Source: Methanobacteriota archaeon
GTDB taxonomy: Archaea; Halobacteriota; Methanosarcinia; Methanosarcinales; Methanosarcinaceae
Direction: 5' to 3'
Length of the DNA: 57,473 nucleotides
Assembly: GCA_030054735.1 (NCBI GenBank)
Contig: JASGVX010000070.1
Coordinates: forward strand, 1-57,473
Below the pieces are notes generated by a model. That model did no database searches and was not told where the DNA came from. It was given only the letters and a program-made list of their open reading frames with translations. Both the position numbers and the translations under genes were made by a program. Shown here piece after piece: positions 2,308 to 27,896 of this stretch. The stretch's first letter is position 1, and every line of letters starts with the position of its first letter.

Positions 2308-2310
2308 AAC

Positions 2311-6213: not shown

Positions 6214-6266
6214 ACGCCGGAAAGCCGGGAGTTTTCCAATTCTTGTGGATATTTGCGAGGCACGAA

Positions 6267-7264: not shown

Positions 7265-7265
7265 G

Positions 7266-8039: not shown

Positions 8040-8159
8040 TAAAGCGAATTAAACAAACAACATAAACACCAGCGAGCAGAACAGCAGTAATAATGAAAGG
8101 GTAACATGGAAAAGAAGCATAAAAGATGAAAACATTTGAAAACTTTTTAAAGTGATCGG

Positions 8160-9104
8160 ATGCTGAAATTCATTTTAAAAAGAATGGCTCTGATGCTCAT
8201 CGTCATTCTTGGTGTGACAGTGCTGACTTTTTTGATAATGCATTTTACACCTGGAGACCCGGCCGAGATGATTGCCCTCTCCCGGCACGGGGCAGAGAGC
8301 CTGACTCCAGAAAATATTGAACGTATAAGGGTAGAAGAAGGCCTGAATGCCCCGGTCTATATTCAGTATCTAAAGTGGCTGCAGCACTTACTCCATGGGG
8401 ACCTGGGCTACAGTCTGATAAATGGAGAACCGGTATTATCGGAGATTTTGAACAGGTTTCCGGCAACGTTTAAGCTTGCAGTTACTAGTATGATTGTAGC
8501 CCTGATAATAGCAATTCCGCTTGGAATTATCACCGCGAGCAAGCAATATTCGCTATTTGACAATCTTAGCATGATGGGAGCAATGATCGGCGTGGCCATG
8601 CCGAGTTTCTGGTTTGCTTTGTTGCTTATTCACCTCTTTGCCTTATGTCTTGGATGGTTTCCGGTTTGTGGGTCCGGGAGCTTTGAGTATATAGTACTTC
8701 CAGCCCTGACTTTAGGGACCGGAATTTCAGCCGTCCTTACAAGATTTATACGCTCAAATATGCTTGATGTACTCAGGCAGGATTATATCAGAACCGCAAG
8801 AGCAAAAGGGTTGACTGAAAAACTCATTATCATTAAACATGCTCTAAAAAATGCATTTATTCCGGTTATAACAGTTATAGGCATTCAATTTGGCAGGGTA
8901 CTGGAGGGGTCAGTCATAGTTGAGACGATCTTTGCCTGGCCCGGGATAGGAAAACTCCTTGTTGACTCGATATATTCGCGCGATTTTGCGATGATCCAGG
9001 GATGTGTGCTGTTTGTGGCGGTCATATTCGTTCTTGTCAACCTTTTTGTGGATGTATCATATACCTACCTGGACCCAAGGATACGGTACGAAGAGAGAAG
9101 ATAA
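8160..9104 (+). CDS. DppB/NikB-type ABC importer permease
   Basis: This 314-residue inner-membrane permease of the peptide/nickel importer class has six predicted membrane segments. The first follows MLKFILKRMALMLIVILGVT, and the family block FTPGDPAE follows it. The EAA loop that docks the ATPase is visible as 'ARAKGLTEKLIIIKHALKNA' (about residues 214-233). The start ATG 8160 follows AAGTGATCGG. A 120-bp gap separates it from the exporter permease, so it may have its own promoter or be read through. It works with DppC (9216), the two ATPases (10067, 11001) and presumably the lipoprotein at 733. Confidence 0.93.
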   Translation: MLKFILKRMALMLIVILGVTVLTFLIMHFTPGDPAEMIALSRHGAESLTPENIERIRVEEGLNAPVYIQYLKWLQHLLHGDLGYSLINGEPVLSEILNRFPATFKLAVTSMIVALIIAIPLGIITASKQYSLFDNLSMMGAMIGVAMPSFWFALLLIHLFALCLGWFPVCGSGSFEYIVLPALTLGTGISAVLTRFIRSNMLDVLRQDYIRTARAKGLTEKLIIIKHALKNAFIPVITVIGIQFGRVLEGSVIVETIFAWPGIGKLLVDSIYSRDFAMIQGCVLFVAVIFVLVNLFVDVSYTYLDPRIRYEERR

Positions 9105-9215
9105 ACAACTCATGAAAATAAACAAAGCCTGAAGGCATGCACGCGAAGGAAGATCCTGCATATTAAAAAAATCAGAACTCAAAAAATCAAAAAACTCAGG
9201 AAAGAGGCCAGATAT

Positions 9216-10070
9216 TTGAAATCAGCTAAGAAATTGATCTGCCAGCGGCTAAAGAAGAATAAAATTGCAATAGTAGGCCTGGCAATGATCACCTTCCTTT
9301 TATTTCTCGCAGTTTTTGCACCATGGATTGTTCCCCATGACCCGATAGAGCCAAACCTTGGAAAGCGTTTCCTATCCCCCTGTAAAGAATATCCCATGGG
9401 AACCGACGATCTCGGCAGGTGCGTACTGAGCAGGGTCATATATGGCACGAGAGTCTCCTTGCAAGTGAGCATGTCTGTGGTTGGGATAATAGCAGTTATT
9501 GGGGTGACACTCGGCTTGATTTCCGGATACTTCGGAGGAAAACTGGACGAACTGATCATGAGATTTGTGGATACTGTCCTTGCGTTTCCGGGGATTATAC
9601 TGGCTATGGCAGTTGCAGGCGCCCTCGGGCCCGGCCTGTTCAATGTGATGCTTGCCCTGGCCCTAGTGTCCTGGACCGGCTTTGCCAGGGTTGTCCGCAG
9701 CTCGGTAATGGCCGTAAAAGAAAAGGAGTTTGTAGAATCTGCAAGAGCTCTCGGTTGCAGTGACCTGTATATCATGACCCGCCACATCCTGCCAAATGTA
9801 ATAACACCTGTGATTGTGCTGGCTACGCTTGACATGGGGTTTATTATCCTGGCAGCGTCCAGCTTGAGTTTCTTGGGGCTGGGAGCGCAACCCCCAATCC
9901 CTGATTGGGGGTCCATGTTGAACAACGGAAGGGTTTACATGCGAACTGCCCCCTTCCTGACGATCTTTCCTGGTATAGCTATTACGACAGCAGTAATGGC
10001 ATTCAATTTCCTGGGTGACGGGCTGAGAGATGCCATGGATCCCCGACCGCAGAGGGAGTTAAAAAAATGA
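9216..10070 (+). CDS. DppC/NikC-type ABC importer permease
   Basis: This 284-residue second permease of the importer begins at a TTG codon. The site AGGAAAGAGG about 8 bp upstream supports that start, and no ATG fits better. The family block 'HPMGTDDLGRCVLSRVIYG' appears here as 'YPMGTDDLGRCVLSRVIYG' (about 56-74), and the EAA loop is 'ARALGCSDLYIMTRHILPN' (about 174-192). Its stop overlaps the start of DppD by 4 bp (ATGA), so the two are translationally coupled. Confidence 0.93.
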   Translation: MKSAKKLICQRLKKNKIAIVGLAMITFLLFLAVFAPWIVPHDPIEPNLGKRFLSPCKEYPMGTDDLGRCVLSRVIYGTRVSLQVSMSVVGIIAVIGVTLGLISGYFGGKLDELIMRFVDTVLAFPGIILAMAVAGALGPGLFNVMLALALVSWTGFARVVRSSVMAVKEKEFVESARALGCSDLYIMTRHILPNVITPVIVLATLDMGFIILAASSLSFLGLGAQPPIPDWGSMLNNGRVYMRTAPFLTIFPGIAITTAVMAFNFLGDGLRDAMDPRPQRELKK

Positions 10071-11008
10071 CATTATTGAGCATACGGGATCTTAGAACCT
10101 ATTTTTATACGGAAGACGGCGTGGTGAGGGCGGTAAACGGTATTGACCTGAACCTCGAGGAAGGGGAAACCCTCGGAATAATAGGAGAAACCGGATGCGG
10201 GAAAACCATGCTGGGGTTATCGATACTGCGTTTGCTTTCTGAAAACACAAAAGTAGAGGGGGAGGTTCTTTACAGGGGAACCGACCTCATCCGGCTCAGC
10301 AAGGCTGAAATGCGAAAAATAAGGGGAAAGGAAATCAGCATGATCTTCCAGAATTCTCTCTCTTCTATGAACCCTGTGCTCACCGTGGGAAAGCAGCTTG
10401 CTGAACCCCTAGAAATGCACCAGCACATGAAAAAGCAGGCCGCAAAACAAAAGGTCATCGAGATGTTAAAAGCCGTAAAAATACCCTCGCCTTCTGATAG
10501 GGCAGCAGAGTATCCCCATGAGTTCAGCGGAGGAATGAGGCAGAGAGCAATGATTGCAATGGGATTGGCCTGCACTCCCTCTCTTATTATCGCCGATGAG
10601 CCAACCACAGGGCTCGACGTTACAATCCAGGCCCAGATAATTGAATTGATAAAGGAAGTGCTGGAGCATTCAGGGGCATCCATGCTCCTGATAACGCATG
10701 ACCTTGGAGTTGCTTCCGAGCTGTGCAACTCCATCGCAGTAATGTATGCAGGGGAGATCATAGAATATGCCGGTATAATAGAGCTGTTCAAAAACCCCAG
10801 ACACCCCTACACACGTGGCTTTTTTGGATCCCTTCCGAACAGAGGGCTGAAGCCCATGCCCGGTACATGCCCGAGTATGATAAACCTTCCTGGTGGCTGC
10901 AAGTTTCATCCAAGATGTCCCCATGCGAGCAGCCGGTGTGAAAAAGAAAAACCGGATATGCTGAAATTAGGGGAAAAACACTATGTGAGGTGCTTTTTGT
11001 ATGATTGA
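10067..11008 (+). CDS. DppD/OppD-type importer ATPase
   Basis: This 313-residue ATPase powers the Dpp-type importer. Motifs are Walker A GETGCGKTM, signature FSGGMRQRAMIAMG, Walker B LIIADEPTTGLD and the switch His in LITHDLG. The C terminus has the oligopeptide-ATPase extension with the Cys pattern 'CKFHPRCPHA' and nearby Cys residues, which in relatives can hold an Fe-S cluster. It overlaps DppC by 4 bp and DppF by 8 bp. Confidence 0.94.
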   Translation: MTLLSIRDLRTYFYTEDGVVRAVNGIDLNLEEGETLGIIGETGCGKTMLGLSILRLLSENTKVEGEVLYRGTDLIRLSKAEMRKIRGKEISMIFQNSLSSMNPVLTVGKQLAEPLEMHQHMKKQAAKQKVIEMLKAVKIPSPSDRAAEYPHEFSGGMRQRAMIAMGLACTPSLIIADEPTTGLDVTIQAQIIELIKEVLEHSGASMLLITHDLGVASELCNSIAVMYAGEIIEYAGIIELFKNPRHPYTRGFFGSLPNRGLKPMPGTCPSMINLPGGCKFHPRCPHASSRCEKEKPDMLKLGEKHYVRCFLYD

Positions 11009-11963
11009 GGTTAACGGCTTAAAAAAGCACTTTTCATCAGGATTTTTTTGTAAAAAGCACGTAAAAGCCGTTGATGGGATCGATTTCAGAATTGAAAAAG
11101 GGGAGACTTTTGGACTGGTTGGAGAAAGCGGGTGCGGAAAAACAACGGTAGGCAGGCTAATTGCAGGGATTATTGAACCTAGTTCTGGAAAAGTGAAATT
11201 TGACAATGTAGATTTATTTGAACTTAATAAAAAAGACCTGAAAAAAATCAGACCAAGGCTGCAAATTATATTTCAGAACCCTTATGCTTCCCTGAACCCG
11301 AGAATGCTTATAGGAGAGGCCATAGCAGAACCTCTTAAATTATATGATGTAGTAGGCCGGGAAAAAAGAGATGAAAAAGTCATGGAACTAATAGAGATGG
11401 TGGGACTTAACCCCGAACACCTGAACCGGTATCCCCATGAACTGAGCGGTGGACAGAACCAGCGAGCCGTGATCGCAAGGATCCTGGCAATCAACCCCGA
11501 ATTTATCGTAGCTGATGAGCCGACTTCATCCCTGGATGTGAATGTGCAGGCACAGATACTGAACCTGCTAAGAGATGTGAATAAGAAATTTGGCCTGACA
11601 TGTTTATTCATCTCCCATGACCTAGAAGTGATAAAACTCATTACCGACAGAGTAGCTGTCATGTACCTTGGAAAACTGGTAGAGATCGGAAAAACGGATG
11701 AAATATTCAGGGAGGCAAAACATCCCTATACAAAGGCCTTATTGTCCGCAATACCTGTTGCTGACCCCGAGGTGAAGAGGGAAAAAATTATCCTTCAAGG
11801 AGAGATCCCAAATCCCATAAACCCACCCCCTGGATGTAGATTCCACAGCAGATGCCAATACAAAAAAGAAATATGTAAAATTGAAGAACCTCTTCTAATC
11901 GGAGAAGAGCACAAAGTAGCATGTCATAGAGCTGATGAAATACCCGGATTTTTAAAGAGTTAA
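11001..11963 (+). CDS. DppF/OppF-type importer ATPase
   Basis: This is the second importer ATPase, 320 residues. Motifs are Walker A GESGCGKTTVG, signature LSGGQNQRAVIARI, Walker B FIVADEPTSSLD and LFISHDLEV. The C-terminal extension includes 'PPGCRFHSRCQYKKEIC'. The start at 11001 lies inside the end of DppD and is preceded by GAGGTG. It is the last gene of the left operon; the chelatase motor gene converges on it with a 42-bp gap. Confidence 0.94.
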   Translation: MIEVNGLKKHFSSGFFCKKHVKAVDGIDFRIEKGETFGLVGESGCGKTTVGRLIAGIIEPSSGKVKFDNVDLFELNKKDLKKIRPRLQIIFQNPYASLNPRMLIGEAIAEPLKLYDVVGREKRDEKVMELIEMVGLNPEHLNRYPHELSGGQNQRAVIARILAINPEFIVADEPTSSLDVNVQAQILNLLRDVNKKFGLTCLFISHDLEVIKLITDRVAVMYLGKLVEIGKTDEIFREAKHPYTKALLSAIPVADPEVKREKIILQGEIPNPINPPPGCRFHSRCQYKKEICKIEEPLLIGEEHKVACHRADEIPGFLKS

Positions 11964-12005: not shown

Positions 12006-14057
12006 TTACATTGAAAAGCTACTAAATTCTTGATTAAAATCAAAAGGGGCAGAAGTTCTAACAGCATTAACTATAGATTCTGCCTTTAAATCTTCAAGGG
12101 TAAAATACGTAGCCCCAAGGGCTGTAGAAATCTTCTGTGCAAGCCCGAATTTTATCATGCTGCTTTCCGTGTCAATTACGGCAGACTGTATACCTTCTTC
12201 TTTTAACCTGGAGGCTATTGTAGTTATTTCCTCAAGAGGAGGCCCACCATCCATACTAACATTTGCCCTGCCGTCAGAGATCAGGACCAAAAAAGGGCAG
12301 GTATCAGGATCCCGGCGCAGTTCAGCTTTTATGACCTCATACCCTTTCACAAGGCCTCTGGAGAGGGGTGTTTTTCCGCCAGTGGGCATCTCCTGAAGAT
12401 ACTTTTGAGCCAGTTCTATGCTGGAAGTAGGAGGCAGCAGAAGTTCTGCACTGTCTCCTTTAAAAGCAATAAGCCCGACTTTGTCCCGTTTCTGGTAAGC
12501 ATCCATAAGCATGGAAAGGACTGCCCCTTTTGATGCAACCATTCTCTGCCTGGCCCCCATAGAACCGCTGGCGTCCACAACAAAGAGGACAAGGTTACCG
12601 ATCTTTTTCTCCCGGACCTTTTTTCTGAAGTCGGATTCGTGAATTATTATGGAATTTCCGTCCTTTTCCCGTGTAAGCTGATAGGGAGCAGCTGCCCTCA
12701 ATGTGGCATCAAAAGCAAGGTCAGTGGTTTTTTCGTGAGGAATAGTACTCATTATATACCTGCCCTGTTTGGAGCTGGTAAGAGTTTTACTGCGCCTGCC
12801 TGTCCCTTTTCGATTAGCCCTGAGAAACTCAGGGTTTAATTGTTTTACCTGATAGCTTTCCCCTATAGCAAAAACAGTTTCTGAAGAGGCATCAGGCTGT
12901 CCCTCAGATTGGTTCGCTGTGTTTTCAGGCTGCTTTTCGGGATGTTCATGAGGTTTTTCGGGGTTTTCTTTACGTTCTTGCTTCTGCTCTTCCTGTTTAT
13001 TTTTCTCTTTATCTTTCTGTTTTTCCCTGTGCTTTTCTATACTTTCGTCCAGTTTATCCTGTTTGTCTGAATGAGAATCAAATGGCTTTCTACGCATGCG
13101 GTGAGAGAGCACCAGTTCTGCAGCTTCTTTTACGTCCTCTTCAAGGACTTCAGTCCTGCCGTTAAAGGCTGCAAGGGTGATTGAAGTTTTCATCATTGTA
13201 ATATCTGCCCTGTGCCCGTCAACCCCCATATCAACACAGATCTGGCTGATCAGCTCAAGCATCTCATCCGAAATCCTGACTTCGGAAAGCAGCTGCTTCG
13301 CATTAAGGATCTGGCCGCAAAGCTCGGTTTCGGCATCCTGCCAGTTTGCTGCAAAGGCTTCAGGGTCTGCCTCATAACTTAGCCTGGATTTTATGAGCTC
13401 AACTCTCCTGGCAACGTCACTTATGCCTTTTACATCCACACACAGGCCAAAACGGTCCAGTAACTGAGGCCTCAGTTCCCCTTCTTCCGGATTCATTGTG
13501 CCTACAAGCACAAAATTCGCAGGATGGGAGTAAGAAATTCCTTCTCTTTCAATAGTGTTTATCCCCATTGCTGCAGAGTCAAGGAGCACATCTACAAGGT
13601 GGTCGTCCAGAAGGTTGATCTCATCCACATAAAGGATGCCCCTGTGCGCCATTGCAAGAACTCCTGACTCAAAACGCTTTTCCCCTTTTTTGATAGCGTG
13701 TTCGATATCAAGAGTCCCTACAACTCTATCTTCAGTGGCACTTACGGGAAGGTCAACCACCTTCATTTTTATCCGGGAAGCATTAAGGGTTCCGGCTTTT
13801 AGTTTTTCAAGGCATTTCTCACACAGTTCATTTTGATGATTAGGGTCGCATTTGAATTTACAGCCCTCAACAACTTCGATTTCAGGCAGGAGGTTAGCAA
13901 GAGCCCGGACTGCAGTTGATTTGGCAGTGCCTTTTTCTCCCCTGATAAGGACTCCACCCAGTTTTGGGTTGATGAGATTTAAGACAAGGGCTTTTTTCAT
14001 TCTCTCCTGCCCTACTATAGCAGTAAAAGGGTAGATAGTAATGTTGTGCTTCCTCAT
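12006..14057 (-). CDS. fused ChlI-ChlD type chelatase motor subunit (putative cobaltochelatase)
   Basis: This 683-residue AAA+ protein with a C-terminal VWA domain belongs to the Mg/Co-chelatase I/D family, which hydrolyses ATP to drive metal insertion by BchH/CobN. The AAA+ part covers about residues 1-330, with Walker [10 protein letters not shown] and Walker [14 protein letters not shown] charged Lys/Glu/Gln-rich linker runs from about 335 to 405. The VWA domain (about 485-665) keeps the metal site DASGSMG. Sequence around '[17 protein letters not shown]' (about 62-78) is Cys-rich, as in many archaeal and bacterial relatives. It is the only motor gene in the window although there are two CobN genes. 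The S-layer-domain gene lies 20 bp upstream, so the two are probably co-transcribed. Confidence 0.92.
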
Positions 14058-15976: not shown

Positions 15977-16015
15977 AATCAAAAAATGGAGCCTGAAAAC
16001 CAGAGGAGCCTGAAA

Positions 16016-16590
16016 ATGAAAAAAAACAGTATTACATTAGTACTCATATTTACACTTATTTTCCTGCTGTGTTCTGGGTGCGTATCCTCAGACAAAATAT
16101 CTTCCGGCGGCGTATCCCCTGAAAATACATCTTTAAAAGAAACAGATGAAAACATAGGCGAAAGCTCAAGAAGTGTGCTAAATCAGGGAAAACGTGAAAA
16201 GTCTACACCTTACATTTACTGGGAATATGAACTTGGAGATATAACCCCGGAAAACATAAGTTAAAGAGGGTCAAGCGTTAGGGACTGCGTAAGGTATACT
16301 GAAGACGGAAAATCCAAATGGTATTTTTCCACTCTCCGGACATGAGGTTCTTTGTCCTGCCAGTTGGAAAGGATACGTCATCAGGCAATACTCAGGTCCA
16401 CGGAGTCCATGCATTCGATATCCGGAAATCCGGGAATGGGAACTCAAAACTGCTCTGGACCTTCAATACCAGAGGAGTTGTCGTAAATGCTGCGATTTCT
16501 TCAGACTGTACCGCAGCCGCAGTTGAAGTCCCTCTGCAGCTCAAAAATGGAGATCTAACTGGAAAACACATGTTAATAATTATCAGGTGA
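16016..16590 (+). pseudogene. collapsed copy of the beta-propeller lipoprotein
   Basis: The N-terminal part (16016-16264, ribosome site GAGGAG) encodes a lipoprotein signal ending LLCSGC and then 'YELGDITPENIS'. This matches the region just before the blades of the intact gene downstream ('VKLEDVTPGPIE'). After a TAA, the same frame still reads 'SVRDCVRYTEDGKSKWYF', like a first propeller blade. It then jumps, in a new frame (16318-16590), to a close match of the intact gene's C terminus ('HGVHAFDIRKSGNGNSK' against 'HGVYIFDASKSGGASSR'). So the copy has a stop, a large internal deletion and a frame change. It is a decayed tandem duplicate. Confidence 0.85.
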
Positions 16591-16594
16591 GAGA

Positions 16595-18301
16595 ATGAAA
16601 TGGAAATCTTTGATAGTCCTGCTTATTGTGATACTGGTAGCTTCAGGATGTGCTGAAAAAAACCAGGAATCAAAAAGCGATGCATCGTCTCAGGATTTGA
16701 AGTCAGGGATACAGGATATAAGTAATTCCGGGTCCGGACTTATAGACTCAGTAGTATTCTCAAGGACCGGAGCTCTGCTTACTCTGAAAAGTACGGAAGA
16801 GATCTCGGAAATAAAGGTATACTCTGACAGTGGACAGATAAGTTCTCAGGAGATTGGAAAAACCAATGACAATGTATTTGCTTCCTTTGAATGGAACCCT
16901 GAATCCCGTTACAGGTTTGAAGTGCTTACAGGATCAGGTGTGTCCAGTTCTATTGAAGCATATGCTCCTTCAAAACCTGCCCTGAAAGTGGAGTATACCG
17001 TAAAACTTGAAGATGTAACTCCCGGACCTATTGAAAAAACCTCACAAAATATAAAAGGTACGATGAAATTTTCTCCTGACAGCAAATATCTTGCCATAGG
17101 GACCAATGGAGGCTCTCTGAAACTTATAGAGGTCACAACAGGTGAAAAGGTATGGGAAAAGCAGCTCGTTAAAGGTATATCCAATGCAAGAATCGCGGAC
17201 ATAGAGTTTTCAGAGGATGGAAAGAGCCTTTTTGTTGGTGAAGATAGCCCGGACGCTTTTCTCTACTGTTTTGACCTTAACGGCAACGAAGTATGGAAAT
17301 ATGGGGCAGCTGAGGAACTGGGTTCAGACCTCAAGTACATGCCTGCAATGAAAAAGATACAGCTTGATTCAAAAGGGAATATCTATGTCGCTGCCAGCAG
17401 GGCCTGCGGTTATGTTGGTGAAAAATACAAATACCTGGCAAAGGTCTATTCCTTTGACCCTGAAGGAAATCTGCGCTGGAAGTTCCCCGAATCAGAACTT
17501 ATGGACTCGGGAGTTACATGGATTGATGTCACCCCTGACGGGAAATACGCTGTCTTTGGCACTACCTGTTTTACAAAAGCGGATAAATGGAAAGACGGTA
17601 CTGTTCATGTCCTGAACGGAAATACGGGACAGGAACACTGGAGATACAAGATAGAGCCAATTGAGCCGTTTTTCGACTATTCCGCAATCTGGTACAGCAC
17701 ACAGATAACTCCTGACGGGGAAAAATTAATAACGATGACAAGCGACGGCCGGGCATTTTTATTCAATAACGCCCGTATTATTGAAAGCGGGACCCCGGAA
17801 ATTGCATGGGAGCAGAACATCTCAACCCCGATAGTCGTGAGTGGAGTCCCTATCTACGGCAGTGCAAACTATGCCTACATTGTTAATGAGACCCTGATCT
17901 TTTCAATAGGCAGCACTTTCTCCAGAGATAAAAACAAGGACGCTCCGTTTGAGCACCCCAGCGGAAACAGCTTCTTTGCCTATGATTATGACGGCAACCT
18001 GCTATGGAAATGGAGAGTAGACGGCTATGCAGGAGAGTGCGCACTTAACGACCGCTATTTTGTGATCCCACTTGCCCAGAACCTGGTAACTGAGGACAGA
18101 AGCGTGCACGGGGTATACATTTTTGACGCATCAAAAAGCGGAGGTGCAAGTTCCAGGCTAATCCAGACTTATAATACGGAAGGAATTACAGTATCTGCCG
18201 ATATCTCACCTGACGGCAGGTATATTGCAGCTCTCGAATCCCCTGCAAGGCTTGAGGACGGAACAGTACTCGGAGAATATAAAGTTCACATTTTGACCTG
18301 A
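16595..18301 (+). CDS. beta-propeller (WD40/PQQ-like) lipoprotein
   Basis: This 568-residue surface lipoprotein has a signal peptide ending ASGC (Cys about residue 19), a spacer of about 100 residues, then repeated blades. The blades carry motifs such as 'MKFSPDSKYLAIGTNGGSLK' (about 155-174), 'VTPDGKYAVFGTTCF', 'ITPDGEKLITMTSDGRAF' and 'ISPDGRYIAALESPARL'. The repeated [T/S]PDG-x-Y pattern is typical of WD40-like or quinoprotein-like propellers. The ribosome site is GGTGAGAG. CobN2 starts 10 bp after its stop, so the two are co-translated. It may bind a ligand or partner at the cell surface for the adjoining chelatase/ECF system; no catalytic residues can be named. Confidence 0.83.
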   Translation: MKWKSLIVLLIVILVASGCAEKNQESKSDASSQDLKSGIQDISNSGSGLIDSVVFSRTGALLTLKSTEEISEIKVYSDSGQISSQEIGKTNDNVFASFEWNPESRYRFEVLTGSGVSSSIEAYAPSKPALKVEYTVKLEDVTPGPIEKTSQNIKGTMKFSPDSKYLAIGTNGGSLKLIEVTTGEKVWEKQLVKGISNARIADIEFSEDGKSLFVGEDSPDAFLYCFDLNGNEVWKYGAAEELGSDLKYMPAMKKIQLDSKGNIYVAASRACGYVGEKYKYLAKVYSFDPEGNLRWKFPESELMDSGVTWIDVTPDGKYAVFGTTCFTKADKWKDGTVHVLNGNTGQEHWRYKIEPIEPFFDYSAIWYSTQITPDGEKLITMTSDGRAFLFNNARIIESGTPEIAWEQNISTPIVVSGVPIYGSANYAYIVNETLIFSIGSTFSRDKNKDAPFEHPSGNSFFAYDYDGNLLWKWRVDGYAGECALNDRYFVIPLAQNLVTEDRSVHGVYIFDASKSGGASSRLIQTYNTEGITVSADISPDGRYIAALESPARLEDGTVLGEYKVHILT

Positions 18302-18311: not shown

Positions 18312-21300
18312 ATGAAAATAGTTTCAGTAACGTGGAATTCATACATTCCCACCCTTCTCAGGGCAGCAGAGGAACTTGGTATAGAACTTGAGCCTTACTA
18401 CTCAAAAATCCTGGAAGAAAAACCCGAGGAAGCCGAAAACGTCCTATCTGCGTGTGAGAATGCTGATGCCATCTTCCTGTATCACATAGCTAATCCTTTC
18501 TGGGAAGATTTCTATAAAAGGATTGAACCTTTAAAAACAAGAATACCCATAATATGTGTAGGCAGCAACCCCACAAGTTTTACCCTTTCTTCAGTAAAAC
18601 TCGAGATTGCAGCCACCTGTTTCTCATATATGATCTATGGAGGGGAAGAAAACTTTAGCAACATGCTCCGTTACATCTTAAAAGAGGTTTTCGGGGCTGA
18701 AATCGAAACAAAACCTCCGGAAAAAATACCCTGGGACGGACTCTATCACCCTGATGCTGGAAAAATGTTCTCAGGTATTCAGGACTACCTGGACTGGTAC
18801 GGACCCCTGAAGGACAAAACTGTTGGGCTGCTTATCTCAAGGACTTCCTGGGTAAATAACGAACTTGAGATTGAGAATGCTCTAATAAGTGATTTTGAAA
18901 AACTGGGCTTATCTGTTGTCCCTGTTTTTGCATACTCTTTGAAAGATGAAGAGCTTGGTAGCAGGAGCATGGATGAGGTCATAGAATCCTACTTTATGAA
19001 AGACGGCAGTCCCGTTATAGACTGCCTTGTTAAACTTTCTCCTTTCTTCATTGCCAGCAACAAGGCAACAGAGAGGGATAGCTCATGTGCAGCAAAGGGC
19101 GTAGAGCTGCTGAAAAAACTTGATGTGCCTGTTTTCCAGCCTGTTATTTCGCATTACATGAGTATAGAACAGTGGCAGGAGTCTCAGGGCTTAAGCACCG
19201 AGATCGGCTGGAGTGTAGCTTTGCCTGAGTTTGAAGGTGGAATCGAACCCATAATAATAGGTGCAGGCAAAGTGGAAGAAAATTACATGGGCCGCTTTCC
19301 TATCCAGGAGCGCTGCTCAAAACTTGCATTAAGGGTTTTTAAATGGATTGAACTCAGGAAAAAACCTGTTGACAGGAGAAAAGTTGCCTTTATCCTGCAT
19401 AACAAACCCTGTACAGGGGTTGAAGGTTCAGTAGGGGGTGCTGCCAACCTTGATTCTATTGAAAGTGTGGCAAGAATCCTGAACCGGATGCAGAAGGCTG
19501 GCTATGCCGTCAACCCACCCCTGGACGGCAGAGAACTTATAGAGAGCATTCTGAGCAGAAAAGCAATTTCAGAGTTCAGGTGGACTCCCATCAATGAAAT
19601 CATAAAGAACGGCGGAGCTCTCGCTTTAGTGGAAAAAGAAGAATACGAGATGTTTTTTAACACCCTGAGCCCGGGAGTCAGGCAGAGAGTAACTGAGAGC
19701 TGGGGAAACCCGCCGGGAGAAGAAGTAAACGGCATCCCTGCTGCAATGGTCTATGATAACAAGATCGTAGTGACCGGAGTAGAGTATGGAAATGCTGTGG
19801 TCTGCGTACAGCCAAAGCGCGGATGTGCAGGTGCCAGGTGTGATGGAAAGGTCTGTAAAATCCTGCACGACCCCGATGTCCCCCCAACTCACCAGTACCT
19901 TGCAAGCTACAGGTATCTTGAAAACACGTTTGGAGCCGATGTGCTCGTGCATGTAGGGACACATGGCAACCTTGAGTTCCTGCCCGGAAAAGGTGTCGGG
20001 CTTTCGGAGGACTGCTACCCTGATATAGCAATAGGGACAATCCCACACCTTTACATCTACAATTCCGACAACCCCCCAGAAGGCACGATTGCCAAACGCC
20101 GGAGCCTTGCATGTCTGGTTGACCACATGCAGACAGTCATGACAGCAGGGGGGCTTTATGAAAGCCTTGCAGAACTTGACAGGCTCCTTGGAGAATACGA
20201 ACAGGTAAAACATGATAGAGGCAGAGAACACGCTTTAAAGCACCTTATACTTGATGAGATTGAAAAATCGAACCTTGACTCCGAGATAAAAGCCGGCCAT
20301 GATACTCCTTTTGAAGAAATTATAAGAAAAGCACATGAAGTCCTTGGCAGAATAAGAAACAGCCAGATACACCACGGGATGCATATCTTTGGGCAGGTCC
20401 CTGAAGGCGAGAAAAAAGTCGAGTTCATAAACTCGATTTTAAGGTATGAAGACCATGAAAATAAAGTATCTATACGAAGGCTGATTGCAGACCTTCTGGG
20501 GCTTGACCTTGATGAACTGATCTCAGACCAGAGTTTGATTTCAGAAAATGGGAAGTCAAATGGGCAGAGGCTTGAGGAAATTGATTCTCTTTCAAAAGAC
20601 TTCATAAGGACATTTATAAATAATCCGGAAAAAGAGCCGTCCTGGATAATAAAAGAGATGTTCGCAGCGCAAGATATAAACCCTGCATTTTCTCAGGACG
20701 CTGCTGCAATCTGTGAAAGAATTCTTGACCTTGAGTCCAGAATTGATGCCTCTCTGGAGATTGAAGCCCTTCTGCACGGCTTTGAAGGGAAATACATCCC
20801 TGCCGGCCCGTCTGGACTTATCATGCGCGGAAGAGATGATGTACTCCCGACAGGCAGGAACTTTTATTCACTTGACCCCAGAAGAGTCCCGACAAAAGCT
20901 GCGTGGAGGGTAGGGCAGCAGCTCTCAGGGGTGTTGATTGACAAGCACCTCAGGGAAGAGAACCGTTACCCGGAGAATGTGGGCTTTTACTGGATGGCAA
21001 ACGATGTTATGTGGGCCGACGGAGAGGGCATGGCACAGATAATGAGCCTGCTCGGGGTCGAACCGGTCTGGCTCAACAACGGGCAACTTAAAGGGTTCTC
21101 TGTAATTCCCTTAAAAGAGTTAGGCAGGCCCAGGATTGATGTTACTGTAAGGGTCTCAGGGATCCTCAGGGACAATTTCCCTAACTGCATGGAGGTCATA
21201 GACGAGGCAATCCAGGCTGTAGCTTCTCTTGACGAGCCCGAGGATATGAACTACCCAAGAAAACACAGCCTCAGGATGCTTGAAGAAGGGGCGGATTCGA

Positions 21301-22130
21301 GAGAATCTACGCTGAGGATCTTTTCAAGCAAACCCGGTACCTATTCTGCAGGGGTACAGCTTGCAGTTTATGCAAGTGCCTGGAAAGACGAAAAGGACCT
21401 TGCAGATATTTTCCTTTACTGGAATGGTTATGCATACGGAAAAGACGTAAAAGGAATAGCTGCTCATACCCAGCTTGCATCAAGCCTTAAGACTGTTGAC
21501 GCAACCTTTAACAAAGTGGTCAGTGACGAGTATGACCTCCTGGGCTGCTGCTGTTATTTTGGGAATCATGGAGGGCTTACGGCTGCCGCAAAACAGGCTT
21601 CTGGAAAAGATGTAAGGGTTTATTTCGGGGACACGAGAGAACCACAGCACGTTGAAGTCCGGGACATGGCAGATGAAATGCGTAGAGTGGTAAGAACCAG
21701 GCTCTTAAACCCAAAATGGATTGAAGGCATGAAACAGCACGGGTATAAGGGCGCACAGGACATTTCTAAAAGGGTTGGAAGGGTCTACGGCTGGGAAGCT
21801 GCTACGCAGGAGGTGGACGACTGGATCTTTGATGATATCACAAAGACATTCGTGCTCGATGAAGAAATGCGCCGCTTCTTTGAAGAAAACAACCCATACG
21901 CCCTTGAGGAAATGGCACGCCGACTCCTTGAAGCGCAGTCAAGGGGGCTCTGGGACCCGGACCCTGAACTTCTGGAAAAGCTGAAAAACTCCTACCTTGA
22001 AATCGAGAGCTGGATGGAGGAACTGGCAGGAGAAGGAGAGTTTCAGGGCGGTGGTGTGGAAATCATGAGCTTTGAAGATGTTCCTGAATGGGATAAGAAG
22101 ATGCAGGAAATCCGAAAAATCTTCAAATAA
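18312..22130 (+). CDS. cobN: CobN-like cobaltochelatase large subunit, paralogue 2
   Basis: This is the second CobN/BchH family protein, 1272 residues, with the same layout as paralogue 1. It carries 'VHVGTHGNLEFLPGK', 'GCAGARCDGKVCKILHDPD' and 'HLYIYNSDNPPEGTIAKRR', so neither copy looks decayed. The ribosome site is GAGGGGGAAAG. It lies between the propeller lipoprotein (10 bp upstream) and the S-component fusion (12 bp downstream), all in one operon. The pairing with ECF genes, rather than with Dpp genes as for paralogue 1, suggests that the two CobN proteins serve different substrates or supply routes. Confidence 0.92.
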   Translation: MKIVSVTWNSYIPTLLRAAEELGIELEPYYSKILEEKPEEAENVLSACENADAIFLYHIANPFWEDFYKRIEPLKTRIPIICVGSNPTSFTLSSVKLEIAATCFSYMIYGGEENFSNMLRYILKEVFGAEIETKPPEKIPWDGLYHPDAGKMFSGIQDYLDWYGPLKDKTVGLLISRTSWVNNELEIENALISDFEKLGLSVVPVFAYSLKDEELGSRSMDEVIESYFMKDGSPVIDCLVKLSPFFIASNKATERDSSCAAKGVELLKKLDVPVFQPVISHYMSIEQWQESQGLSTEIGWSVALPEFEGGIEPIIIGAGKVEENYMGRFPIQERCSKLALRVFKWIELRKKPVDRRKVAFILHNKPCTGVEGSVGGAANLDSIESVARILNRMQKAGYAVNPPLDGRELIESILSRKAISEFRWTPINEIIKNGGALALVEKEEYEMFFNTLSPGVRQRVTESWGNPPGEEVNGIPAAMVYDNKIVVTGVEYGNAVVCVQPKRGCAGARCDGKVCKILHDPDVPPTHQYLASYRYLENTFGADVLVHVGTHGNLEFLPGKGVGLSEDCYPDIAIGTIPHLYIYNSDNPPEGTIAKRRSLACLVDHMQTVMTAGGLYESLAELDRLLGEYEQVKHDRGREHALKHLILDEIEKSNLDSEIKAGHDTPFEEIIRKAHEVLGRIRNSQIHHGMHIFGQVPEGEKKVEFINSILRYEDHENKVSIRRLIADLLGLDLDELISDQSLISENGKSNGQRLEEIDSLSKDFIRTFINNPEKEPSWIIKEMFAAQDINPAFSQDAAAICERILDLESRIDASLEIEALLHGFEGKYIPAGPSGLIMRGRDDVLPTGRNFYSLDPRRVPTKAAWRVGQQLSGVLIDKHLREENRYPENVGFYWMANDVMWADGEGMAQIMSLLGVEPVWLNNGQLKGFSVIPLKELGRPRIDVTVRVSGILRDNFPNCMEVIDEAIQAVASLDEPEDMNYPRKHSLRMLEEGADSRESTLRIFSSKPGTYSAGVQLAVYASAWKDEKDLADIFLYWNGYAYGKDVKGIAAHTQLASSLKTVDATFNKVVSDEYDLLGCCCYFGNHGGLTAAAKQASGKDVRVYFGDTREPQHVEVRDMADEMRRVVRTRLLNPKWIEGMKQHGYKGAQDISKRVGRVYGWEAATQEVDDWIFDDITKTFVLDEEMRRFFEENNPYALEEMARRLLEAQSRGLWDPDPELLEKLKNSYLEIESWMEELAGEGEFQGGGVEIMSFEDVPEWDKKMQEIRKIFK

Positions 22131-22142: not shown

Positions 22143-23717
22143 ATGAAAAACATAGCCCTTCTCTTCCTTGTACTGGTGCTTGCATTAGAGCCTGCTGCAG
22201 CCCAGGCACAGGAGGACTTTGAACCTGAAGAGATGACCGCATTCATAATTCAGGCCCCTCACGGCGTGGTTGAAAACGGCCTTGCAGCAGGAGATAGCAA
22301 CCTTTCAGCATATGTTTTTTTTGAGACCTACCACAACGGAAACATGAATGTGACAATGGAAATTGATGTGCCTGAAGGTTTTGTACTTCAGGATACCTCT
22401 CTACATTCATTTTCACTTCAGACAGAGTATGAGGACTGGTACAGGCTCATAGATATATATATTCCCGAGGAAACGCCTCCCGGTGCCTACAACATAAGCG
22501 CAAGCGCAATTGTTGATGTTAACGGGAGCAAGCATAGCATTGTACGCAAAGCCCAGATCAGGGTTGCTTCAAAAGAAGAAATTGCAAATGAGATCTCAGT
22601 TTCCGGACTGGTAATACCGTCAGACGAGGACGGATATGGAGACCCGAGGCGTCCTTCCAATACACTGGTTATCCGGGAAACATCTCCTGCCCTCAAAAAG
22701 CTGCTGAAAGCTACAGAGCTCCAGATAGACAGGGAGGAACTAATTTCGACTTACATAGGAGTGGAAGTTTCCAATAAAGGAAAAAGTACGGTCTCTGTTA
22801 TAGTCACCTATGATATTCTTGATATCAAAACAGGAGAAACTGTTAAAGCCTACAAGCCCGACCTGATGGGAATGAGCGCAGATGCATTCTGCAACGCCGC
22901 ATTAAAACTTCCTCCGGGGTCAAGTTCTCTGGCAAGCATCCCTCTTTATATATCTGATAATGCGATGGGAGGAGACTACCTGCTGAGAGTTAATGTAAAA
23001 CTCACGGGGAGCGACTGGACTGCAGTAAAACATGACCAAAAAATAACTTCAATTTCGAGGAAATGGGGACCTATAACGATTACATTTGTATCCATATTGA
23101 TTGGATTAGCTGCAGTCAGCCTCTTTTTCTCAAGGTCAAAAGAGATAATGGACAGGTTTAAGACCCGCAACCTTGTGCTGATTTCCCTTTTCGGCACTGT
23201 TTCTTTTGCTGCCATAAACCTGCCAATGACAATCCTGTGGGAGCTGTCCCATGCGATATTCGGGCCTTTCAGTTTCCTGTTTACCGGACTCTTTCATGAG
23301 ATACTCCTTTACATGCTCATTGCCTCTCTTGTTGTCCTGATCCCAAAACCAGGAGTTGTTAGCCTTTTTATGCTGGTCAGGTTCCTTCTCGGAGGCTTTA
23401 TAACCGGGAGCTTCACCCCCATTACTTTTATAACATTATCATTGAACGCGGTAATTCTGGAGCTTATGATGTATACTGCAGGCATAAGCGGTAAAAATCC
23501 GGACCCTGAAAACAGGTTCAGGATGGGATTTGTCTGCGGAATTGCGGAGATGGTCAGCGGGTATGCAGGCTTCAGCGTCTGGATGGTGCTCTACAGGCTG
23601 TTTTACAGCGAATGGTACATAATTGCGAATATCCTGATCAGCGGGTTCCTTTACACTTTCATAGGGGCATGGTTTGGAATAAGCCTGGGAAACAGGCTGA
23701 AAAAGGTTGCTGAATAA
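22143..23717 (+). CDS. ECF transporter S-component-like protein fused to an extracytoplasmic domain
   Basis: This 524-residue protein has an N-terminal signal peptide (about 1-21, cut near AAAQAQ) and an extracytoplasmic beta-rich region of about 290 residues with segments such as 'IPEETPPGAYNISASAIVD'. A first membrane helix follows at about 305-325 and a short basic cytoplasmic link (RSKEIMDRFKTRN). After that come about six hydrophobic segments (about 340-515) resembling a substrate-binding S component ('ISLFGTVSFAAINLPMTI', 'FITGSFTPITFITLSLNAVI'). It is followed 54 bp later by EcfA and then EcfT, which supports the S-component reading. S components are normally under 250 residues, so the fusion is unusual. 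Alternative: an unrelated polytopic sensor. Confidence 0.7.
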   Translation: MKNIALLFLVLVLALEPAAAQAQEDFEPEEMTAFIIQAPHGVVENGLAAGDSNLSAYVFFETYHNGNMNVTMEIDVPEGFVLQDTSLHSFSLQTEYEDWYRLIDIYIPEETPPGAYNISASAIVDVNGSKHSIVRKAQIRVASKEEIANEISVSGLVIPSDEDGYGDPRRPSNTLVIRETSPALKKLLKATELQIDREELISTYIGVEVSNKGKSTVSVIVTYDILDIKTGETVKAYKPDLMGMSADAFCNAALKLPPGSSSLASIPLYISDNAMGGDYLLRVNVKLTGSDWTAVKHDQKITSISRKWGPITITFVSILIGLAAVSLFFSRSKEIMDRFKTRNLVLISLFGTVSFAAINLPMTILWELSHAIFGPFSFLFTGLFHEILLYMLIASLVVLIPKPGVVSLFMLVRFLLGGFITGSFTPITFITLSLNAVILELMMYTAGISGKNPDPENRFRMGFVCGIAEMVSGYAGFSVWMVLYRLFYSEWYIIANILISGFLYTFIGAWFGISLGNRLKKVAE

Positions 23718-23771: not shown

Positions 23772-25517
23772 ATGAGGAAGAATAAAGGCGGCACAATAAT
23801 AGAGATCAAAGACCTGTGGTATACCTACCCTGGGAGATCGGAACCTACCTTGAAAGGGATCAACCTGAAAATAGAAGAAGGGGAATTTGTCCTCCTGACA
23901 GGGCCTACAGGCTGCGGGAAGAGCACTTTACTGAAAACCCTCAACGGTATAATTCCCCATGAATCCGGAGGAATGTTTTCAGGCAGCATAAAGATTGCCG
24001 GGACAGAGACAGGAGATTCAAACCAGATGGAGCTTTCAAGGAAAGTCGGACTTGTATTCCAGAACCCCGACGACCAGATATTTTCTACAATTGTTGAGGA
24101 CGAAGTAGCTTTTGGGCCTGAAAACCTCTGCTTTGAGAGGGAAGAGATTGATAAAAAAGTAGGAGATGCTCTTCAGATGGTCGGGCTGCCAGGACAGAGG
24201 CTGGACTCCACAAATTCACTTTCCGGGGGACAGAAACAGAGGATCTGCATTGCAAGTATGCTTGCGATGCTGCCTGAAATTCTTGCCATGGACGAGCCAG
24301 TAAGCCAGATGGACCCTGCAGGCACCAGGGATATCCTGAAAACTGTGAGTGAACTTAACAGGAAACAGAATATAAGCATTTTTCTGGTTGAACACAGGCT
24401 GCATGAACTTGCACCCTTTGCAGACAGAATTGTCATAATGGAGAGTGGTAAAATAATCCTGGACCAGCCTGCCTCAAAAGCTTTTGACCACCTTGAGGTA
24501 TTTCACAGGCTGGGACTTCGGGTCCCCGAGACCGTTGAACTCTGCCATACTCTTGGGATAAAGGCAAGCCCTTTCAGTGCGGAAGAAACGATTCCCTTGC
24601 TGAAGACCGGAAATTTTAAAGAAAAAGCGAAGACCTATTTAACGCGCTCTATCCCGGAAGAAAAAGCCAGCTCCATGAGCTGTTCTAATTCCATGAGTTG
24701 TCCTGTAGAAAATAATGAAGCTTTGATCTCTATCAGGGACCTGTGGTCTGGCTATGATAAAAGTCTGATGGTCCTTAAAGGAATAAACCTGGAAATCCAT
24801 AGAGGTGAAAGGGTAGCGGTCATGGGTACAAATGGCTCAGGCAAGTCAACTCTGCTTCTTAACCTTGCAGCCATGCTCAAGCCTTACAAAGGGAGTGTAA
24901 AGGTCTTTGGGGAGGATACAAAGCAAAAAACCCCATACTCTTTTGCAGGCAGAATAGGGGTTGTGTTCCAGAACCCTGACCTTATGCTCTTCTGCGATAC
25001 AGCTGAGGAGGAGATAAGGTTCGGACCTCTTCAGTTAAGGTATACAGATATCGAAGAAAGGACAAGAACCTCACTTGAAGCAATGTCAATTCTAGACCTC
25101 AGGCATGACCTCCCCCAGTCCCTCAGTAGAGGGCAGAGGTTAAGGACAGCTGTCGCATCAGTGCTTTCTATTGACCCTGAGCTTATCCTCCTTGATGAAC
25201 CCACAACAGGACAGGACAGGGTGAATATAGAACAGATGATGGACTATTTCAAAAACAAAGGTTCTACGCTTGTGTTCTGTACCCATGATATTGAGATTGC
25301 GATGCTGTATGCTACCCGAATTCTTGTGATGAGTGAGGGCCAGATCATAGCAGATGGAAAAGGACGAGACGTCATAAAGAATATAGATATCCTCAGAAAG
25401 GCGTCCCTTACCCAGCCTCCCATTGTTGAAATTGCTAATTATCTCGGAATTGATGCCTTTTCAATCACAGAACTTGTCGAAGTGCTTACCTGTAGAAACC
25501 CTGATGTGATAATATGA
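23772..25517 (+). CDS. ECF transporter ATPase with two ABC domains (EcfA-EcfA fusion)
   Basis: This 581-residue cytoplasmic ATPase has two ABC halves in one chain. The first (about 10-250) has Walker A GPTGCGKST, signature LSGGQKQRICIA and Walker B ILAMDEPVSQMD. The second (about 320-560) has GTNGSGKST, a signature changed to LSRGQRLRTAVA, and LILLDEPTTGQD. A Ser/Cys/Met-rich linker joins them. ECF importers normally use two separate or paired ATPases, so this chain can supply both. The start follows GAGGACGGTACT. The stop overlaps EcfT by 4 bp (ATGA). Confidence 0.92.
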   Translation: MRKNKGGTIIEIKDLWYTYPGRSEPTLKGINLKIEEGEFVLLTGPTGCGKSTLLKTLNGIIPHESGGMFSGSIKIAGTETGDSNQMELSRKVGLVFQNPDDQIFSTIVEDEVAFGPENLCFEREEIDKKVGDALQMVGLPGQRLDSTNSLSGGQKQRICIASMLAMLPEILAMDEPVSQMDPAGTRDILKTVSELNRKQNISIFLVEHRLHELAPFADRIVIMESGKIILDQPASKAFDHLEVFHRLGLRVPETVELCHTLGIKASPFSAEETIPLLKTGNFKEKAKTYLTRSIPEEKASSMSCSNSMSCPVENNEALISIRDLWSGYDKSLMVLKGINLEIHRGERVAVMGTNGSGKSTLLLNLAAMLKPYKGSVKVFGEDTKQKTPYSFAGRIGVVFQNPDLMLFCDTAEEEIRFGPLQLRYTDIEERTRTSLEAMSILDLRHDLPQSLSRGQRLRTAVASVLSIDPELILLDEPTTGQDRVNIEQMMDYFKNKGSTLVFCTHDIEIAMLYATRILVMSEGQIIADGKGRDVIKNIDILRKASLTQPPIVEIANYLGIDAFSITELVEVLTCRNPDVII

Positions 25518-26407
25518 TAGGGGCCAGAACAATTGCAGAAGCAACAATTAGAGACACGATAATTCACAGGATAGACCCCAGGGCAAAGATCCTGATTTTG
25601 ATCTCGACTGTTTTTGTAGCAGTAGCCCTGGACAATCCCAGGACTATGTTTTTGTTGTTTTTGATAGTACTTTCTGGATTTGCGCTTGCAAAGATGCCCG
25701 CAATAAAACTCAAAACCCTTGCAATTTTGCTCATACTTTTGATATGGGGAACGATTTATTCTCAGGCCCTATTTTATTCCCAGCTCCCGAGGACTGTGAT
25801 TTTTACCATAATCAGTCCTGATTTTCCGGTCCTGGGCTGGCTGACAAACGGAGGGCTCTTCGTATATGAAGAAGGGCTCAGGCACGGCGCAATACAGGGT
25901 TTGAGGTCTGCTTCAATCCTGTCCCTTGGCCTTTTGATGTGCTGGACCACCGATTCAAGGGATATGTTAAACGGCCTTGTAGGGCTCAGGGTCCCTTACA
26001 GCGTGGCTTTTATGGTGGTTACGGCAGTCAGGTTTCTTCCGATAATAATCACTGAAGTAACTACCGTAATAACAGTCCAGAGGCTCAGGGGTTTTAATCC
26101 GAAAAAATTTGGGTCAGGGATCATAAGGACAACACTTAATATACTGACCCCGACCCTGTCAAACTGTGTAAGGAGAACCGGAACCCTTGCAGTTTCGGTC
26201 CAGAGCCGGGCTTTCCGGGCAAATACGGAAAGGACATACCTCAAAAAATTGAAATTTTCGGAATTTGATAAAGCAGTGCTTACAATCTGTATTTTTGCTG
26301 CCGTAAGTATTGTGGTTATAAAGCTTCTTTACAACATGTACACAAGTGGAATTTATTATACTTCAGGCTTAAGACCTGTTTATGCAATCGCCAGGGGATA
26401 CCTGTGA
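25514..26407 (+). CDS. ECF transporter transmembrane protein EcfT (CbiQ-like)
   Basis: This 297-residue membrane protein couples EcfA ATP hydrolysis to the S component. It has the family N terminus 'HRIDPRAKILILISTVFVA' (about 18-36), several membrane helices, and the cytoplasmic coupling segment 'RRTGTLAVSVQSRAFRAN' (about 219-236), the position of the Ala-Arg-Gly/Ser motifs that touch the ATPases. It overlaps EcfA by 4 bp and the next ATPase by 4 bp (GTGA), so the whole module is translationally coupled. Confidence 0.9.
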   Translation: MIGARTIAEATIRDTIIHRIDPRAKILILISTVFVAVALDNPRTMFLLFLIVLSGFALAKMPAIKLKTLAILLILLIWGTIYSQALFYSQLPRTVIFTIISPDFPVLGWLTNGGLFVYEEGLRHGAIQGLRSASILSLGLLMCWTTDSRDMLNGLVGLRVPYSVAFMVVTAVRFLPIIITEVTTVITVQRLRGFNPKKFGSGIIRTTLNILTPTLSNCVRRTGTLAVSVQSRAFRANTERTYLKKLKFSEFDKAVLTICIFAAVSIVVIKLLYNMYTSGIYYTSGLRPVYAIARGYL

Positions 26408-27171
26408 TAGAAATTAGAAAATTGTCCAGATCCTTCGGGAACATTCTTGCTGTTGATAAGCTCGACCTTGATGTGGGAAACGAGATCTTTGGGCTTCTGG
26501 GCCCTAACGGGGCAGGCAAAAGTACGACAGTTATGATGCTTACGACTCTGCTGAGACCGAGTGGCGGCAGTGCGAAAGTCTGCGGATATGATATCGTAAA
26601 GGACTCAAAAAAGGTAAGGTCGAAGATAAGCTATGTCCCCCAGGACATGGCAGTTGACCGGAAGCTGACAGGCAGGGAAAACGTGATGCTTTATGCAAAA
26701 CTCTACGGGATTCCGAACAGGAACTCAAAAGTTGATGAGGTAATTGAAATGATGGGGCTTTCGGACCGTGCAGGCGACCTTGTAATTACATACTCGGGAG
26801 GAATGAGGCGGCGCCTTGAACTTGCCCAGGCGCTCGTACACGAGCCTGAAGTCCTTTTTCTGGACGAGCCTACCCTTGGCCTTGACGTAAGCGGCAGAAA
26901 GAAGATCTGGGAGCATATAAGGATGCTGAAGGCTGAAGGGATGACTATTTTCATGACCACGCATTACCTTGAGGAGGCAGAAAAGTACTGCAACAGAGTT
27001 GCCATTATTGATAAAGGGAGAGTCGCAGCTGTCGGCACCCCTGAGAACCTTGTAAGCTCAAAAGGAGAAAATGCCTCCCTTAACGATGTTTTCCTTGAAA
27101 AAGTCAAAACCCCTGAAGAGCAGGCAGGATTTAATACAACCCAGTTCAGAAACCTTCTGAGGCGGAGATAA
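26404..27171 (+). CDS. ABC exporter ATPase (DrrA type), second pair
   Basis: This 255-residue ATPase of an ABC-2 exporter starts at GTG 26404 within the end of EcfT. Motifs are GPNGAGKST, YSGGMRRRLELAQA, LFLDEPTLGLD and TTHYLEEAEKYC. The C-terminal tail is shorter than usual (ends ...LNDVFLEKVKTPEEQ...), but keeps the 'LNDVFL' block. It overlaps the permease start by 1 bp (TAATG). The pair mirrors the one next to CobN1, so each CobN gene is in cis with one DrrAB-type pair. Confidence 0.9.
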   Translation: MIEIRKLSRSFGNILAVDKLDLDVGNEIFGLLGPNGAGKSTTVMMLTTLLRPSGGSAKVCGYDIVKDSKKVRSKISYVPQDMAVDRKLTGRENVMLYAKLYGIPNRNSKVDEVIEMMGLSDRAGDLVITYSGGMRRRLELAQALVHEPEVLFLDEPTLGLDVSGRKKIWEHIRMLKAEGMTIFMTTHYLEEAEKYCNRVAIIDKGRVAAVGTPENLVSSKGENASLNDVFLEKVKTPEEQAGFNTTQFRNLLRRR

Positions 27172-27896
27172 TGAAAACAGTATTCTATTATTTTGAAAGG
27201 GACCTTGTAAAATGGCTCAGGGGCAGAGTAACTGTTATTTCCTCCCTTGTTATGCCTGCAGCCTGGCTGGTATTTGTCGGGCTCGCCCTTCCCACAAAGT
27301 TCACTGATAATTATCTTCAATTTATCACCCCAGGCATCCTTGTAATGACAACCCTCTTTTCCTCCCTCCAGGGGGGATCACTTATGATTTTTGATAAAAT
27401 ACTGGGTTTTCTGAATAAGTTCCTGGCCATGCCTTCCCCACGCGAAAGCATGCTCTACGGAAAAATCCTTTTTATAAGCGTAAGGGGCCTATTGCAGGCA
27501 ACTGTAATCCTTCTGATAGCCACGCTTCTTGGAGTAAGGATATTGAACCCAATAAATATAGCTCTGATATACTTTACACTCTTCCTCTTTTCGGTATTTT
27601 TCTCTTCCCTTTCAACCATGATAGGTCTGTACCTGAGTGACCACGACAGCTATGCAGCAGTGAACAGTATGATCAGCATGCCTTTGTTTTTCACGAGCAG
27701 CGCACTTATGCCTTATGATGTTATGCCCACCTGGTTGAAAACGCTAGCAAAACTCAATCCGGTAAGCTATGCAATAGACAGTATAAGATTGTTGTTTGAA
27801 GGGACAATACCAGTGCACGGAATCCTTGGACTTGCAGTAGGAGCCAGTATCATGGTCCTTCTCGGAACATATCAGTTCCGAAAGGCAGTTGTGTAA
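27171..27896 (+). CDS. ABC-2 type exporter permease (DrrB type), second pair
   Basis: This 241-residue polytopic membrane protein of the ABC-2 family is the partner of the ATPase just upstream. It ends the right operon. Family features include an N-terminal cytoplasmic helix before the first membrane segment ('FERDLVKWLRGRVTVISSL'), and the late block 'TLAKLNPVSYAIDSIRLLF' (about 195-213). The substrate is unknown. The gene converges on the PhoU-type regulator, with about 130 bp between the stops. Confidence 0.87.
   Translation: MKTVFYYFERDLVKWLRGRVTVISSLVMPAAWLVFVGLALPTKFTDNYLQFITPGILVMTTLFSSLQGGSLMIFDKILGFLNKFLAMPSPRESMLYGKILFISVRGLLQATVILLIATLLGVRILNPINIALIYFTLFLFSVFFSSLSTMIGLYLSDHDSYAAVNSMISMPLFFTSSALMPYDVMPTWLKTLAKLNPVSYAIDSIRLLFEGTIPVHGILGLAVGASIMVLLGTYQFRKAVV

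Follow-up and report, generated by a model that had tools for sequence, protein, structure and literature searches.

The window analyzed here, the whole stretch of 57,473 nucleotides, comes from an archaeon of the family Methanosarcinaceae. On its forward strand an ORF starting with ATG encodes 524 residues in which a signal peptide, a large outer part, one membrane helix and a six-helix membrane domain follow one another in a single chain. Stops are abundant in the complementary frame, leaving the antisense frame closed. The parts of this fusion and the genes on which the analysis below draws are as follows:

12006..14057 (-), fused ChlI/ChlD chelatase motor subunit (Pfam Mg_chelatase, AAA_lid_2 and VWA)
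16595..18301 (+), beta-propeller lipoprotein at the head of the conserved operon (PQQ_2; synteny)
18312..22130 (+), CobN homolog (CobN2), directly upstream of the fusion (NF004646, 2507 bits; adjacency)
22143..23717 (+), fusion gene, 524 aa: extracytoplasmic domain, membrane helix and YkoE-like S-component domain
22143..22211 (+), signal peptide, residues 1-23, with the hydropathy core at 4-22 (hydropathy)
22236..22568 (+), outer beta-sandwich domain 1, residues 32-142 (AlphaFold2 pLDDT ~90; Ig/FnIII-like matches)
22593..23057 (+), outer beta-sandwich domain 2, residues 151-305 (AlphaFold2; Ig/FnIII-like matches)
23067..23132 (+), membrane helix H0, residues 309-330, with the hydropathy core at 311-329, N-terminus outside (hydropathy, AlphaFold2)
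23133..23168 (+), basic cytoplasmic link, residues 331-342
23169..23714 (+), six-helix YkoE/PF09819-like S-component domain, residues 343-524 (sequence and profile comparisons)
23772..25517 (+), double EcfA with two ABC domains (TIGR04520, 432 bits; two ABC_tran stretches)
25514..26407 (+), EcfT (CbiQ/PF02361, Pfam)
26404..27171 (+), ABC-2 exporter-type ATPase, DrrA-like, kept in the operon (family match, synteny)
27171..27896 (+), ABC-2 permease, DrrB-like, kept in the operon (family match, synteny)

The link behind H0, RSKEIMDRFKTRNLV, holds five K/R against two D/E. Hydropathy delimits hydrophobic stretches in the S domain at residues ~343-365, 376-402, 404-422, 424-442 and 493-511, while the sixth segment (~462-487) stays below the Kyte-Doolittle threshold of 1.6, yet is helical in the AlphaFold2 models. 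The protein ends ~12 residues past the last helix, without a cytoplasmic signaling domain after the six helices, and basic, cytoplasmic stretches are found at both ends of the six-helix part, a topology that fits an S component. The anatomy first described in the sequence-only reading, with a signal peptide, a beta-rich outer domain, a helix, a basic link, about six hydrophobic segments and an adjoining EcfA and EcfT, was thus confirmed in all its elements by hydropathy, AlphaFold2 and family matches.

The ORF of 524 residues is a genuine gene that evolves under purifying selection. It is present at full length and as a single ORF in 23 of the 31 Methanosarcina genomes, the 22 relatives showing 72-81% identity, as well as in Methanococcoides vulcani (51% identity) and one Methanosarcinales MAG (~49%). 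The membrane domain is the better kept part (dN/dS of 0.07-0.11 and 84-92% identity within Methanosarcina; 62% identity to M. vulcani) and the outer domain the faster changing one (dN/dS of 0.17-0.25 and 66-72% identity within Methanosarcina; 46% to M. vulcani). A scan of viral contigs for further homologs of the fusion found none, and a search for plasmid carriage of the locus gave no match. A weak match of genome G051 to the fusion protein was dropped as a repetitive beta-rich protein.

Closer examination of related genomes revealed a second, shorter fusion. We refer to the long fusion, represented by the window protein of 524 aa (P0001), as group A and to the shorter one of ~365 aa (for example P0002) as group B. 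Group B proteins consist of a signal peptide, one outer beta-type (Ig-like) domain, one helix and a membrane part homologous to that of group A, and their genes often have a double EcfA, an EcfT and DUF3344 proteins as neighbors. They occur in 37 of 100 related genomes, so that the architecture is not unique to the operon of the window. Both groups share the overall architecture, the homologous membrane domain and the occurrence at CobN loci, but group B differs from group A in having one outer domain instead of two, DUF3344 instead of propeller partners, and its own orthologous ECF module. DUF3344-like proteins, often several of them, were observed beside group B S genes and their ECF modules at L048 6715-8754 and L054 5983-14939, with further sets at L100 6077-12755 and L102 7996-14059, one set being assigned by a Pfam test and the rest by likeness.

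Kinship of the membrane part to S components is well supported by comparisons at the level of sequences and profiles. P0001 alone matched no S-component model and had no Pfam match to either PF09819 or PF01891 (CbiM/NikM), and direct PDB sequence searches with P0001, A3 and A4 returned nothing usable. Comparison of P0001 with P0002 gave a BLASTP match of 3e-8 over residues 310-492, and the profiles of groups A and B were aligned by hhalign at 96.3% and 94.3%. Group B in turn aligned with the archaeal PF09819 set at 97.3%, and P0002 matched PF09819 with 30.6 bits, above the cut-off of 25.2, while the group B members from Methanosarcina scored under this cut-off. The best match of the archaeal PF09819 set among all PDB chains was 5EDL, the B. 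subtilis protein YkoE, at an E of 0.0011. Within group A, two orthologs reached PF09819 scores of 11.2 and 22 bits, both less than the cut-off of 25.2; the direct match of the M. vulcani protein to the family, below the cut-off, had an E of 2.5e-4. No link emerged when hhalign was run directly between group A and the PF09819 set (4.6%), and the chain from group A to YkoE therefore runs through group B. The earlier description of the membrane part as S-component-like is borne out by these sequence comparisons.

In the alignment the GP...KPG motif of YkoE is kept in the membrane domain of the fusion, and the thiamine-contact residues of YkoE (Trp49, Glu77 and Gln95) are conserved in neither fusion group. 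The membrane part reached a pLDDT of ~35 in the full-length AlphaFold2 model built from 14 sequences and, when folded alone from 13 sequences with group B left out, a pLDDT of 54 and a pTM of 0.39. The best PDB match of the latter, low-confidence model was YkoE (5EDL), at a non-significant E of 0.65 and a probability of 0.60.

The outer part (residues 32-305) was modeled in the full-length AlphaFold2 run as two beta-sandwich domains, mostly with pLDDT values of 75-92. Its structure matches in the PDB were generic tandem Ig/FnIII-like proteins (for example RbmA, WxL-interacting proteins and transglutaminases), and a solute-binding fold was not among the PDB matches of this model. A weak NPCBM_assoc/NEW3 match at residues 254-287 scored 19.9-21.9 bits, under the Pfam cut-off of 24.4. 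Because the fold is generic Ig/FnIII and not solute-binding, the idea from the sequence-only reading that the outer domain hands a ligand over to the S component is a guess. From the model we instead read the outer domains as probably holding a partner rather than forming a substrate pocket, since the fold is generic and the size of the outer part differs between groups A and B. The surface neighbors differ by group as well, with propeller lipoproteins accompanying group A and DUF3344 proteins accompanying group B.

The ECF module of the window is dedicated to the fusion. The double EcfA starts 54 bp past the stop of the fusion gene, and EcfT overlaps EcfA by 4 bp. EcfAA adjoins the fusion in all 13 of the group A loci examined, as does EcfT wherever the contig reaches far enough. 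This composition is also that of the partners of YkoE, namely YkoD (two fused ATPases) and YkoC (T) (PMC5037267). The genome encodes five EcfT genes, located at the CbiM locus, the BioY locus, the window, C34 and C126. The CbiM and BioY genes sit with ECF modules of their own, CbiM as part of a separate CbiM-CbiQ-CbiO locus; C34 carries a further module of double EcfA and EcfT, and no S gene for the C126 module was identified. The only other YkoE-like S gene found in this genome (C91) belongs to group B and is separate from its motor. The C34 EcfT exhibits 83% identity to the EcfT beside the group B S gene of a relative and 31% to the window EcfT. S, A and T components all divide along the same two groups, and the window ECF module therefore belongs to this S fusion. 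Another S gene serving the same EcfAA/EcfT, which would have spoken against the first description, was searched for in the genome and none was found; the second YkoE-like S gene, C91, pairs with the C34 module.

The tie to CobN that had been suspected from the sequence proved to be strong. A CobN ortholog lies 15-55 bp upstream of the fusion on the same strand in 23 of 23 fusion-bearing Methanosarcina genomes, although counts within one genus are non-independent events and the separate locus layouts described here weigh more than this figure. The operon is kept in M. vulcani, where two propeller lipoproteins, CobN, the fusion, the double EcfA, EcfT and the ABC-2 ATPase and permease are encoded together. 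Of the eight Methanosarcina genomes without the fusion, seven (several of them incomplete) are also without this CobN, while the eighth, G026, contains a CobN of 65% identity, ChlID and a group B fusion with its ECF module in one neighborhood. At the CobN loci of G054 and G031 a group B fusion takes the place of group A, with ABC-2 genes still beside CobN. In G437, which represents another family of the phylum, one strand carries CobN, FecB-type binding proteins, a FecCD permease and a FecE-type ATPase as well as an ABC-2 pair, ChlI, ChlD, an unfused PF09819 S gene (above the cut-off), EcfT and a double EcfA (cluster at L107 6193-16288 and L109 1158-6471). The pairing of a YkoE-type importer with the chelatase thus predates the fusion or is more widespread than it.

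Several other genes of this genome were noted as well. Between ChlID and the lipoprotein operon the window encodes an S-layer family protein (PF07752; 14078-15019, reverse strand), which is matched at ~30-40% identity by a gene at a similar place in relatives. Positions 15986-16590 contain the remnant of a second propeller lipoprotein gene, which keeps only residues ~2-106 and 417-501 of the 501-residue M. vulcani protein; the relatives examined keep this second lipoprotein over most or all of its length. A parallel module (733-11963) comprises an SBP5 binding protein, a second CobN (CobN1, 2311-6213), an ABC-2 pair (6210-8039), and Dpp/Nik-type permeases and ATPases (8160-11963). The single ChlID gene is apparently common to this CobN1 module and the ECF module. 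C4 of the same genome (L105 2246-7357 and 9577-13926) encodes two CobN-like proteins of 1703 and 1449 aa, each beginning with a signal peptide and ending in a membrane anchor, which are apparently displayed outside the cell.

PF09819 S components were also encountered in other arrangements in further genomes of the phylum. One of them, an independent kind of fusion, consists of proteins of 342-377 residues that carry a C-terminal helix and outer domain of ~130 residues behind the PF09819 S domain. In another, a separate gene of ~265 residues with an N-terminal hydrophobic helix immediately precedes an unfused PF09819 gene and a double EcfA. The positions are:

L080 847-1980 (-), L081 1441-2508 and L082 1468-2496, C-terminal PF09819 fusions
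L083 659-2010 (copy without Pfam match), L098 and L099 from 671, ~265-residue upstream genes

The PF09819 S family appears to have acquired surface extensions on more than one occasion. The same theme is seen in two-domain and one-domain N-terminal fusions, in C-terminal fusions and possibly in a gene of its own upstream, which points to repeated use of surface domains on PF09819 S components by these archaea. Such surface-domain-bearing PF09819 S components were not found described in the literature searched, which did not include Rodionov 2009 on ECF transporters.

We consider it reasonably probable that the fusion is the S component of a dedicated group I ECF importer in the YkoEDC layout, that this importer serves the CobN/ChlID chelatase, and that its substrate is most likely a tetrapyrrole. 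As in the window, the S component, double EcfA and EcfT of YkoEDC, the group I thiamine importer of B. subtilis, are encoded together, and profiles place the six-helix S domains of YkoE and the fusion in one family. In contrast to the fusion, YkoE has neither an outer domain nor an extra helix, and its thiamine residues are not kept in the fusion, while the window operon, unlike YkoEDC, contains CobN and an ABC-2 pair. Relative to YkoE, the fusion would have gained a signal peptide, two Ig/FnIII-like domains and the anchoring helix H0 in front of its six-helix S domain. The outer domains would reach into the space under the S-layer and, together with the propeller lipoprotein of the operon, may hold or position a partner or substrate carrier there. 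The six-helix domain would capture the substrate from outside and dock on the window EcfT, the double EcfA would drive release of the substrate into the cytoplasm, and the substrate would then meet the CobN/ChlID chelatase, whichever direction the reaction of this enzyme may take.

The CobN/ChlID neighborhood points to a tetrapyrrole or its metal as substrate; a tetrapyrrole with or without metal appears most likely and the metal alone less so. Import of heme by an ECF system is known from LhaSTA of Staphylococcus lugdunensis (PMC7299338), a precedent for a tetrapyrrole as ECF substrate that is likened to the window by substrate only, as LhaSTA, unlike the window, has no chelatase and no outer domain described. 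Similarly, the hmu operon of Bacteroidota encodes a CobN-superfamily protein, HmuS, together with a tetrapyrrole uptake system, and this CobN relative removes iron from imported heme (PMC12583661). Unlike CobN2, HmuS is membrane anchored and performs heme de-chelation without ATP, whereas the window differs from hmu in its nearby ChlID motor gene and its different importer type; FecCD-type partners occur in the G437 cluster.

The ECF module could alternatively import a metal ion (cobalt, nickel or another) for CobN/ChlID instead of a tetrapyrrole, which we regard as unlikely. NikM and CbiM carry a free N-terminal metal loop, and such a loop cannot form in the fusion, whose S domain is attached at its N-terminus to a membrane helix. 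The membrane domain is moreover not CbiM/NikM, as judged by the lack of a PF01891 match, a separate CbiM-CbiQ-CbiO locus is present in the genome, and YkoE, the characterized PF09819 member, binds thiamine (PMC5037267). On the other hand, CobN-type chelatases insert metals, the Pfam name of PF09819 mentions cobalt, and the CobN1 of the window pairs with an SBP5/Dpp-type importer, and some members of this class import nickel (NikABCDE, PMC2667541). Metal import is also favored by the group I metal systems CbiMNQO, NikMNQO and NikKMLQO, which like the window module comprise more than S, A and T (PMC2667541), but their accessory parts are of other families and the S family is CbiM/NikM (PF01891).

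An import-chelate-export cycle for a tetrapyrrole in methanogens is a still more doubtful proposition. The S component would capture a metal-tetrapyrrole, CobN/ChlID would remove or swap the metal and the ABC-2 pair would re-export the ligand, so that the tetrapyrrole would act as a metal carrier; only the six-helix body would topple, with H0 and the outer domain staying upright.

Docking of S components is believed to involve their toppling in the membrane. In 5TMR sensor histidine kinases, where, as proposed for the fusion, the S fold comes after a helix H0 whose N-terminus is outside, this extra N-terminal helix is thought to counteract toppling of the S fold (PMC11109136). For the main reading of the fusion as an S component, H0 and the outer domain of 290 residues therefore pose a puzzle that needs explaining. 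One guess is that the short basic link lets the six-helix body move while H0 remains upright.

The likeness to 5TMR histidine kinases, with their S fold, extra H0 and outside N-terminus (PMC11109136), would also agree with a receptor that senses a surface ligand through the S-type fold and does not transport. We hold this to be very improbable: the kinases have cytoplasmic signaling domains and no ECF module and the fusion is the opposite, with no such domain after its six helices, EcfAA beside it in 13 of 13 group A loci examined, and S, A and T co-segregating. Import of thiamine or a thiamine precursor, with CobN adjacent for no functional reason, deserves hardly any credence even though the closest solved relative is YkoE with thiamine bound (PMC5037267), because the alignment shows Trp49, Glu77 and Gln95 to be replaced, CobN accompanies the fusion in each of the 23 genomes and recurs in further locus layouts, and a search of the window for regulatory RNAs and riboswitches found only a tRNA, hence neither a thiamine riboswitch nor any other regulatory RNA.

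The architecture, in which H0 and an outer domain of 290 residues are encoded together with an ECF motor of their own, bears on the question of how S components move. To our knowledge, methanogens have neither the aerobic cobalamin pathway nor chlorophyll. The role of the many CobN homologs in methanogens, and the function of archaeal CobN homologs, have been stated to be unclear (PMC12583661). A constant operon partner with a surface domain provides a testable lead to the substrate of methanogen CobN.
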